Positions 13,195 through 38,707 of a stretch of 38,989 nucleotides of DNA are shown here, in pieces. This DNA is from a virus. Below the pieces are notes generated by a model. It did not search any database and was not told the DNA's origin. It saw only the letters and a list, made by a program, of their open reading frames with translations. Where the stretch lies: the IMG/VR virus record IMGVR_UViG_3300046167_000456, positions 1-38,989 of that record. One strand, written 5' to 3'. Position numbers and translations under genes: made by a program. The first letter of the stretch is position 1, and each line of letters begins with the position of its first letter.

Positions 13195-13272
13195 ATGAAC
13201 ACATGGACAACTCCTCAAGTAACAGAAATGAGATTTGGCTTTGAAGTAACAATGTATGTAGCAAATAGGTAA
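13195..13272 (+). CDS. pqqA: PqqA, pyrroloquinoline quinone precursor peptide
   Basis: A 25-residue ORF with AAAGGA 7 bases before ATG. It begins MNTWTTPQVTEMR and ends FGFEVTMYVANR, nearly the same as bacterial PqqA of beta/gammaproteobacteria, which end in (R)xGFEVTMY(x)ANR. The invariant Glu17 and Tyr21 (E-V-T-M-Y) are the two residues that PqqE cross-links, with PqqD as chaperone, to build PQQ. No pqqB-F is present, so the phage would supply only the substrate and rely on host enzymes. PQQ is the cofactor of methanol and other alcohol/sugar dehydrogenases; boosting it would sustain periplasmic energy metabolism in an infected methylotroph (inference). Preceded by its own repeat element and followed by strong hairpins, suggesting a short abundant transcript. 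Confidence 0.92.
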   Translation: MNTWTTPQVTEMRFGFEVTMYVANR

Positions 13273-13281
13273 TAAGGTTCA

Positions 13282-13353
13282 GAGGACGACTTCAAGTCCT
13301 CACTAAATTCGGAGGGACTGCTTTCCTTCTCCTGAAGCAGTTTAAAACCCTCC
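13282..13353 (+). other. Two strong hairpins between pqqA and terminase
   Basis: Hairpin 1: GAGGAC (13282-13287) with GTCCTC (13296-13301). Hairpin 2: GGAGGG (13311-13316) plus ACTGCTT (13317-13323) pair with AAGCAGT (13335-13341) plus CCCTCC (13348-13353), 13 pairs with a TTAAAA bulge on one side. No T-run follows, so they more likely stabilise the 3' end of pqqA mRNA or gate expression of the terminase. Confidence 0.7.
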
Positions 13354-13372
13354 ACTTAACATAGGAAATATA

Positions 13373-13632
13373 ATGGGCGCACCAAAAGGAAATTCAAAAC
13401 AGCAGTAAAGACAACAGGATATGGGGTAAGGTTGTTAAGAAGCTGGCTGTTCAAGAAGATTACAAAAGAATACACAACGTAGCTGAAGCTCTATTCAGAA
13501 AAGCTGAAGATGGAGATATATCAGCAATTAAGGAACTTGGAGATAGGATCGATGGAAAAGCACAGCAAGAAATCACAGGAAGCTCAGACCAACCCATTCA
13601 CAATCGTTGTCAAAACAGGAATTGATGAATGA
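13373..13632 (+). CDS. Terminase small subunit, frameshifted
   Basis: Starts MGAPKGNSKQQ then meets TAA at 13406, but the next frame continues SKDNRIWGKVVKKLAVQED, then YKRIHNVAEALFRKAEDGD and ISAIKELGDRIDGKAQQ, and a second shift at CCC near 13591 restores PFTIVVKTGIDE ending at TGA 13630-13632. MGAPKGN and the helical GDISAIKELGDRxDGKxxQ segment are typical of small terminase subunits of this phage type, which recognise the packaging site. Two single-base indels break it here; sequencing error is the likely cause. The stop overlaps the large-subunit start. Confidence 0.8.
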
Positions 13633-14939
13633 TGACACACAGGTATTGGATACTGGTTACGACCTAGAGAACCTCAAAAAGAAATTCACAGAGCCGTATC
13701 AAAGCAATAGTTGGACTGTCGCTGTGGCGCACAGACGTATGGGGTAAGACTGTGTGTGCTTAGTCAATCAGCTTATACACTCCGCTCTTCAAATGTGAGC
13801 AAGAAAAACCCTCAGTTCGCGTTTATTGCTCCCGACATATAATCAAGCAAAAGCGTTTCGCATTGATTATCCTTGATGAATATACGAGACCGCTTGGGGC
13901 GAAAGTAAACGTTGCTGAACTTCGTGTTGACTTTATGGGTAGGCGCATTAGTCTTTATGGCGCTGACAATCCTGACAGTTTGCGTGGTATTTATCTTGAT
14001 GGGGTTTGTATTGACGAGGTGGCACAAATTCATCCAAACCTATTTACTGAGGTTATAAGACCAGCTCTATCAGATAGAAAAGGATGGGCGCTATTCTTAG
14101 GAACTCCAAAAGGAGCAAACAGCTTTAAAGAGTTAAGAGATTTTGCAGATGATAAAGCTAACGATAATTGGAATCTGTTAGAGTTTAAAGCATCAGAGAC
14201 AGGATTGATTGCAGAAGATGAATTAAAAGATGCAGAAAAGTCAATGGGTATTAATGCTTATAACCAAGAGTATGAATGTTCATTTGACTCACCTATTGTT
14301 GGTTCTTATTATGGTGAGATGATTAAAGACATATCTGGTAGAAATCACATAAGAGACATCCCAACAGAATCAGCTACACAAAAATTTACAGCATGGGATC
14401 TAGGAATTTCTGATAGTACCTCCATTTGGGTCTGCGAGACCATAGGAGGTGAGGTCAGGTTAATGAATTATTATGAAAATCACGGGCAGAGTCTCGACCA
14501 CTATATTGCTTGGTTAGACGAGAATAAGTATCGGGATTATGTCCACATATTACCTCATGATGTACAAGTTAGAGAGCTACAGACAGGCAAGAGTCGTTAT
14601 GAGTTCCTAACGGATGCTGGTCTTAACATAGACATATGCCCTAAACACTCAGTAGAAGATGGTATTTTAGCAGTAAGGAAGATGCTACCCACTACATGGT
14701 TTAACAAAGACACCACTAAGTTTGGTGTTGAGTGCCTTAGGAACTATCGTAGAGTCTTTAACGAGAAGCTTAACGTATACCAAGAGAAACCACTACATGA
14801 TTGGTCATCTCACTGCGCTGATGCTTTCAGATACTTAGCAATGGGTATGGATACATCAGGTAGCATTAAGAGAACTAACTGGGGTAAGCCATATGAAACA
14901 ACCTACGATGGTGAAAGTTATAAATCACAGTATATGTAA
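13625..14939 (+). CDS. Terminase large subunit, N-terminus frameshifted
   Basis: Starts MNDDTQVLDTGY at 13625. Across three frames one can read RPREPQKEIHRAV (the PRxxQ adenine-binding region), WTVAVAHRRMGKTVCA (Walker A, HRRMGKT), NPQFAFIAP and YNQAKAF; at least seven indels between 13660 and 13872 break these apart. From 13863 one intact frame of 358 residues runs on: YLDGVCIDEVAQ (Walker B), FLGTPKGANSF (motif III), TAWDLGISDSTSIWV and HDWSSHCADAFRY (nuclease Asp residues). ATPase-nuclease that packages DNA into the procapsid through the portal. Essential, so the broken N-terminus is almost certainly an assembly artefact. Confidence 0.88.
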
Positions 14940-37980: not shown

Positions 37981-38004
37981 AACCCCTTAATTGGGGTTTT
38001 TTTT
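37981..38004 (+). terminator. Strong rho-independent terminator, end of late operon
   Basis: AACCCC, loop TTAATT, GGGGTT, followed by eight T (37997-38004). The best terminator in the window; it ends the structural/lysis transcript before the small-gene region. Confidence 0.92.
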
Positions 38005-38018
38005 CCTTTAAAATCAAA

Positions 38019-38048
38019 GGGTTAATCAATTACGCACATATATATGTA
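38019..38048 (+). repeat. Intergenic repeat, copy B
   Basis: First 24 bases identical to 735-758. Adds the dyad ACATATATATGT at 38036-38047, then AAGGGG. It follows the late terminator and precedes the gene at 38088 by 40 bases, as a promoter would. Confidence 0.85.
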
Positions 38049-38087
38049 AGGGGTAGAGATACTAACACTAACTAAAGGGGAATAAAT

Positions 38088-38228: not shown

Positions 38229-38355
38229 TTATAACCAACATGTAATAGATTTTATGAACAGCGATAAGTTTGATGTTGAAGCTTACGTTGATAAGTTCAT
38301 TACTGATTACAACAGATCTTGTTATGAATCAGGCAATGTTGATAAACAGGTTTAA
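38221..38355 (+). CDS. Small hypothetical protein, 44 aa
   Basis: MNNYNQHVIDFMNSDKFDVE then AYVDKFITDYNRSCYESG. AAGGGGAAT lies upstream; ATG overlaps the preceding stop by 8 bases, supporting coupled translation. Unrecognised. Confidence 0.6.
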   Translation: MNNYNQHVIDFMNSDKFDVEAYVDKFITDYNRSCYESGNVDKQV

Positions 38356-38363
38356 AATCAACA

Positions 38364-38392
38364 GGTTAATCATTTCCGCACATATATATGTA
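38364..38392 (+). repeat. Intergenic repeat, copy C
   Basis: 29 bases with two mismatches to 38020-38048; contains the same ACATATATATGT dyad and is followed by GGGAGTGAACAT. It lies 36 bases before the 18-codon ORF of the ribozyme transcript, so it is the likely promoter region for it. Confidence 0.85.
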
Positions 38393-38427
38393 GGGAGTGA
38401 ACATATAAACTAACTAAGGAGAACGTC

Positions 38428-38484: not shown

Positions 38485-38540
38485 GGACGAAACTAGGTGG
38501 CAACACCTAGTCCACTGTTTATGACAGTGCTGATGAGTCC
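38485..38540 (+). ncRNA. Hammerhead ribozyme, type II
   Basis: Read 5'-3': GGAC (38485-38488, stem II), GAAA (38489-38492), stem III CTAGGTG / GCAA tetraloop / CACCTAG (38493-38510), TC (38511-38512), stem I CACTG (38513-38517), loop of 7, CAGTG (38525-38529), core CTGATGA (38530-38536), then GTCC (38537-38540) closing stem II with GGAC. All invariant core positions are present: CUGAUGA, GAA, the A15.1-U16.1 pair and C17. Cleavage is predicted after C38512. Stem II is open, the defining feature of type II, the form common in bacterial and phage metagenomes. Cleavage would leave the microprotein mRNA with a short tail and release a downstream RNA with a defined 5' end. No experimental activity is known for this sequence. 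Confidence 0.93.
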
Positions 38541-38707
38541 ATCAGTAACTAACCGCAACACAAATTAATCACTATGTGATGCAGAAGCAAAGGTCAAAAG
38601 ATACCTAAGAACGGATATACAAATCTTTAAGTCAACGGATGCTTTAAATCCAGATGCCAGCGACCCTGATATTACGGGGTCGGGCTATTTAACTAAAGGG
38701 GATCAAA
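38541..38707 (+). ncRNA. Hairpin-rich RNA downstream of the ribozyme
   Basis: No ORF with a ribosome site in ~165 bases. Possible stems: ATCAC/GTGAT with TAT loop (38568-38580), AAAGAT/ATCTTT (38597-38628) or AGGT/ACCT (38591-38606), and GCC..CGACCC/GGGTCG.GGC (38656-38685). These could form a separate small RNA whose 5' part is set by ribozyme cleavage, with the last stem acting as a weak terminator. The exact function is unknown. Confidence 0.5.

Follow-up and report, generated by a model that had tools for sequence, protein, structure and literature searches.

The window, by which we mean the whole stretch of DNA that was analysed, is a viral record of 38,989 bases. Among named isolates, Methylophilales phage Venkman has the closest portal protein (51.5% identical). 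The window also encodes a ribonucleotide reductase, behind which lies a gene for the PqqA peptide (PF08042; 13195-13269), and this gene occurs in the isolates P19250A, MEP301, Venkman, MEP401, MEP402 and Melnitz as well. These features suggest that the host is probably a methylotroph of the Methylophilales, so that the window would come from a phage of marine methanol-eating bacteria. In the isolates named, the PqqA gene is present without a PqqA annotation.

The features of the leader region are listed in Table 1. A terminator-like hairpin may mark the end of the late gene block. Beyond it stand two promoter-like repeats, whose inner 24 nt, of the GGGTTAATCAATTACGCACATATA type, are found at 735-758, 38019-38042 and 38363-38386, upstream of small ORFs. 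The repeat had no match in the other viral contigs searched, and a sigma-70 scan adjoining the repeats identified no promoter. The 18-codon ORF encodes a microprotein that is shared with a related contig, L227; the two are identical at 11/18 residues and similar at 14/18, with changes in 7/19 third codon positions versus 7/38 first and second positions. By this comparison, the protein sequence of the microprotein is conserved.

Table 1. Positions of features in the leader region of the window
Feature	Position	Strand	Basis and remarks
Terminator-like hairpin, AACCCC-TTAATT-GGGGTT and T-run	37981-38004	+	1 found versus 1.0 expected by chance; weak alone
Promoter-like repeat, copy 1	38007-38066	+	60 nt; 82% identity with copy 2; function presumed
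Promoter-like repeat, copy 2	38351-38410	+	about 20 nt upstream of the microprotein; function presumed
18-codon ORF MEYTHYYVAPDGTIVWVK and UAA	38428-38484	+	UAA abuts stem II; kept in L227 as MEYNHYYIDQNGNIVWIK
Type II hammerhead ribozyme	38485-38540	+	sequence, covariance model, orthologue comparison
Stem II, 5' strand GGAC	38485-38488	+	4 bp with GUCC 38537-38540; GGUC/GACC in L227
Core GAAA	38489-38492	+	last A pairs with U38511
Stem III hairpin	38492-38511	+	8 pairs including A15.1-U16.1; GCAA loop 38500-38503; L227: ACAGGC-GAAA-GCCUGU
Predicted cleavage site, after C17 (38512)	38512^38513	+	sequence and established hammerhead chemistry
Stem I hairpin CACUG-UUUAUGA-CAGUG	38513-38529	+	L227: UAUGUC-UUUUU-GGCAUA
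Core CUGAUGA	38530-38536	+	sequence
Anti-core CAUCAG	38540-38545	+	folding; complements CUGAUG 38530-38535; alternative hairpin with loop AGUC; AUCAG kept in L227
Structured RNA element	38546-38692	+	directly after the anti-core; elsewhere directly 3' of phage pqqA
Next ORF, 57 aa	38708-38881	+	sequence and family search; no family

The ribozyme reads GGAC-GAAA-CUAGGUG-GCAA-CACCUAG-U-C^CACUG-UUUAUGA-CAGUG-CUGAUGA-GUCC. Its invariant core is complete, with U38511 and C38512 as the UH positions. Stems I and III are closed by loops and stem II is open, which is the permuted topology of type II. The stem III arms, ACUAGGUG and CACCUAGU, form seven pairs around GCAA, or eight with A15.1-U16.1, and stem I has five pairs, or seven with an added U-A and U.G. 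Hammerheads cleave themselves after C17, leaving a 2',3'-cyclic phosphate and a 5'-OH. An earlier sequence-only reading had recognised this phage ribozyme as a complete type II hammerhead, counted 4, 7 and 5 pairs in its stems and predicted a cut after C38512; its coordinates agree with the sequence.

Detection and conservation of the ribozyme

A type II descriptor (exact core, stems of at least 4 pairs each) matched the window once and found nothing in 11.7 Mb of order-1 Markov sequence (300 windows), so the match is more than chance. We built a custom covariance model from 39 other phage hammerheads, with the window excluded. In that alignment 13/15 pairs are doubly changed and 585/585 cells are paired, compared with 25-46% in slid controls. 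With filters off, the model gave the window ribozyme 64.4 bits (E 4.7e-16), whereas the next best place in the window reached 11 bits. A chance origin is ruled out by this score and by the simulated windows, and we are nearly certain that the ribozyme is genuine.

The Rfam search that the sequence-only reading had proposed came out differently: RF02276 did not match the window either at its cut-off or at E values up to 5-10. The gathering cut-off of 37 bits, which the ribozyme does not reach with this model, is a detection convention and not a definition. RF02276 detected only 4 hammerheads across the other phage loci tested, namely 2 of about 17 descriptor hammerheads in L112, L120, L017 and L002, 2/4 in L058, and none in L107 or L087. 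Its stem II and stem I differ from those of the window subtype. Since most phage members of the subtype escape the model, its silence on the window reflects the model and not the sequence. The Rfam type II model therefore overlooks much of the phage hammerhead population.

We found a single orthologue of the window ribozyme. It lies on an 18.5-kb contig that was recovered as L142, L216 and L227 (IMGVR_UViG_3300025880_000173) and whose ribonucleotide reductase is 90% identical to that of the window. The L227 block runs MEYNHYYIDQNGNIVWIK, UAA, GGUC GAAA CAGGC-GAAA-GCCUG U C UAUGUC-UUUUU-GGCAUA CUGAUGA GACC AUCAG, with AAGGAG and then AUG directly behind the AUCAG tail. Thus, the microprotein, its stop, the position of the ribozyme, the core and the AUCAG tail are the same, whereas all three stems have been rewritten with their pairing kept. 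The L227 hammerhead scored 59.0 bits with the custom model. In a comparison that is small, being of two sequences in an alignment fitted to the model, 8/15 modelled pairs were doubly changed and none broken, and 30/30 cells were paired versus 27-47% in slid controls. The sequence-only reading would have been contradicted by homologues that kept the sequence and lost the stems; L227 does the reverse. Separately, L227 carries a 76-nt mini tmRNA at 13243-13318 on the minus strand (RF00023, 51 bits, model 1-374), which consists of the tRNA-like part only, has no space for a tag reading frame and is not reported by ARAGORN.

The order of genes on the L227 contig is structural genes, ribozyme leader, and then small genes with counterparts at the window's left end. 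This order suggests that the ribozyme heads the early gene block and that the two ends of the window are neighbours. A second relative, L228, carries a hammerhead at 1501-1558 with the core CUGACGA (position 7 changed) behind another upstream gene, and its junction is also arranged as stop, hammerhead, Shine-Dalgarno (SD) sequence and AUG. Among the named Methylophilales phages examined (Venkman, P19250A, MEP301, MEP401 and MEP402), none had a hammerhead match to the custom model, so the ribozyme is dispensable for the phage group overall. A search with the 495-aa neighbour protein as query found no relatives.

Placement of hammerheads at phage gene junctions

A scan for GGACGAAA..CTGATGAGTCC matched at least 120 viral stretches, a sample biased towards contigs that carry at least one GGAC-type stem II. 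In the listed viral stretches together with the window, the descriptor identified at least 158 distinct phage type II hammerheads. Among the matches listed, a gene of at least 40 codons has its stop codon ending -3 to +5 nt from stem II at 116/152 hammerheads, versus 302/2,801 (10.8%) control GAAA sites. At offset -1, the triplet is a UAG that shares the first G of stem II in 41/158 hammerheads among the matches listed. Downstream, an SD-like sequence and a start codon follow within 80 nt in 136/155 of the matches listed (median 25 nt). The ribozyme therefore fits exactly between genes, and the arrangement of stop, ribozyme and start is ordinary for phage type II hammerheads. The sequence-only reading had called the placement next to a stop codon unusual; these counts make it the usual one.

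The same reading had raised the idea that translation and cleavage are coupled. A ribosome at a stop codon occupies about a dozen nt beyond it, and a footprint reaching past the UAA would include GGACGAAA. Ribosomes ending the 18-codon ORF could thus cover stem II and the GAAA and delay cleavage, so that translation of a leader peptide times the cut. The UAA abuts stem II in L227 as well, and the microprotein is conserved as a protein. However, most of the phage hammerheads listed adjoin genes of at least 40 codons in the same way, so that neither a microprotein nor a special coupling is needed; tight packing explains the adjacency. We therefore regard such gating as quite unlikely.

It is also conceivable that the hammerhead is a selfish or neutral cassette that spreads between gene junctions and hardly affects the phage. 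Among the matches listed, insertions at junctions with differing neighbour genes are very numerous, and only some relatives carry the ribozyme. The compensating changes in the stems of L227 argue instead for selection on folding, and to us a cassette of this kind seems doubtful.

Type II hammerheads were previously found to flank prophage genes and to be active in cleavage both in vitro and in E. coli; for phage hammerheads, the processing of long transcripts into gene-length mRNAs has already been proposed (Perreault et al., 2011; PMC3088659). The window ribozyme shares with these bacterial and prophage examples (RF02276) its core, its permuted topology and its location at a gene junction in phage DNA. 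It differs from them in having a 4-bp GGAC-type stem II and a CAUCAG anti-core, in going unreported by RF02276, and in showing no convincing pseudoknot between loop I and the tail. The HHphage ribozyme of haloviruses HF1 and HF2 likewise heads an early polycistronic phage transcript, and a 5' end has been mapped to within 3 nt of its cleavage site (PMC3088659). The window ribozyme has an intact core and stands behind a microprotein; HHphage, in contrast, lies 13 nt before the start codon of a helicase, has a variant core and comes from an archaeal host. Thus, the type of ribozyme and its junction location were already known, and what is new is an orthologue in place whose stems are rewritten yet paired, together with a conserved anti-core. 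The role of hammerheads in phages was first raised as a question in 2011, and to this the locus adds an orthologue pair in conserved synteny. It also yields a clean rule for phage type II hammerheads, which is stop codon, ribozyme and ribosome-binding site. In a limited search of the literature, which is no proof of absence, we located no statement of the stop-codon rule.

The CAUCAG tail and the proposed role

Minimum-energy folding of the region favoured the anti-core hairpin over stem II. Nearest-neighbour energies, which leave out tertiary energy, favour the alternative fold that lacks stem II over the hammerhead by 1.5 kcal/mol in the window and 1.8 in L227, and ribozyme activity could therefore be low. 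Until the tail has been transcribed, the minimum-energy structure is the hammerhead.

CAUCAG is present in 18/110 non-redundant hammerheads among the matches listed, where 0.09 would be expected from the local rate. In this class the loop is 3, 4 or 5 nt long and the stem II strands are GUCC, GACC, GGUC or GUCA. Because the spacing varies and the loop I sequences are unrelated, a hairpin is a better reading than a fixed tertiary contact, though this is no proof. Pseudoknots between loop I and the tail have been reported to be common in type II hammerheads (PMC3088659). Here, Watson-Crick complementarity between loop I and the tail was not above that of shuffled tails (9/155 with at least 5 pairs versus 5.6 expected), and with no convincing example in the window we rejected such a pseudoknot. 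A second anti-core class, GACU-AGUC, was weak (12 observed versus 6 expected), and once the CAUCAG class was set aside, folding energies gave the tails no significant excess of structure over shuffled ones. A stem II extension in the window, GGUUA/UAACC, is not conserved and arises from the inserted element.

One way to read the tail is that the ribozyme regulates itself, with CAUCAG pairing the core before cleavage so that the RNA stays uncut until a ribosome, a protein, temperature or a second RNA opens the hairpin. The position-specific recurrence of CAUCAG across three spacings and several stem II sequences is consistent with this, as are its retention in L227 while the stems changed and the energies of the alternative fold in both contigs. 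However, those energies omit the tertiary core, cleavage may come before the tail is made, 92/110 non-redundant hammerheads among the matches listed do without CAUCAG, and the tail could instead make a tertiary contact in the active ribozyme. We consider self-regulation before cleavage unlikely. More broadly, we suggest only tentatively that about 1 in 6 phage type II hammerheads of the subtype, the window ribozyme among them, are two-state RNAs, which either alternate between a core-locked uncut form and a cutting form, or cut and then lock into a protected 5' end. If so, natural hammerheads would contain a switch of their own. The anti-core deserves follow-up because it is recurrent, position-specific and testable, and it could explain regulation or product stability.

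We propose that the locus probably holds a functional type II hammerhead that heads the early block and divides the phage transcript at a gene junction. The likeliest role would be constitutive processing, by which one long phage transcript becomes separate RNAs with structured ends. The cut would separate the 18-codon ORF from the downstream part of the leader transcript. The stem III hairpin with a 2',3'-cyclic phosphate would close off the upstream piece, and the stem I hairpin with a 5'-OH would open the downstream one. As the GGAC strand would depart with the upstream piece, CAUCAG could then pair with the freed CUGAUG. This would place two hairpins at the 5' end of the downstream RNA and make re-ligation less likely; in folding, the 3' cleavage product of the window forms two adjoining hairpins. 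In this model cleavage would occur in the cell, processing would be its benefit, and the anti-core hairpin would form in the order described. When Perreault et al. tested hammerheads that conformed to the consensus, 4/18 were inactive (PMC3088659).

The structured RNA element and pqqA

In the window, the ribozyme joins a structured RNA element directly after AUCAG. In six other phages (L124-L129) the element lies directly behind pqqA and has 34 consecutive invariant bases and covarying hairpins; shorter variants in L229-L232 have the 3' domain in common. The element had no Rfam match, was not found in GTDB genomes by exact pattern, and was seen only in viral contigs. Its frame looks like coding sequence (DAEAKVKRYLRTDIQ...) and has translated matches in viral contigs, and we considered and rejected the remainder of a broken protein. 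The element is an RNA, because its relatives behind pqqA are conserved as DNA or RNA, its hairpins covary and it has no start codon. In named phages, the translated downstream frame matched nothing convincing.

The pqqA locus of the window lacks the element, which has therefore probably moved. The L227 ribozyme is also without it and is followed instead by an ordinary gene with a ribosome-binding site, and the six phages that carry the element behind pqqA had no hammerhead match in the DNA scanned. Thus, ribozyme and element were joined in the window lineage. This bears on a role that the sequence-only reading had considered, release of the following RNA; here the ribozyme would free the element as a separate molecule with a defined 5' end. 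The element does begin directly after the anti-core, and it is conserved and covarying. However, its association with the ribozyme is specific to the window phage and looks like a later insertion, and L227, which has no such RNA, argues against release as the ancestral role. We find a releasing role very unlikely.

Two further contigs, L141 and L147, have frames resembling HNH-type homing endonucleases (MDYND[LM]FEYRDG...) behind pqqA, and the sequences suggest that this site is a hot spot for insertion. Compared with relatives, the stretch of the window from pqqA to the terminase frame (13270-13870) seems to have frame breaks in the small subunit and at the beginning of the large one, and these are possibly sequencing errors in the contig.
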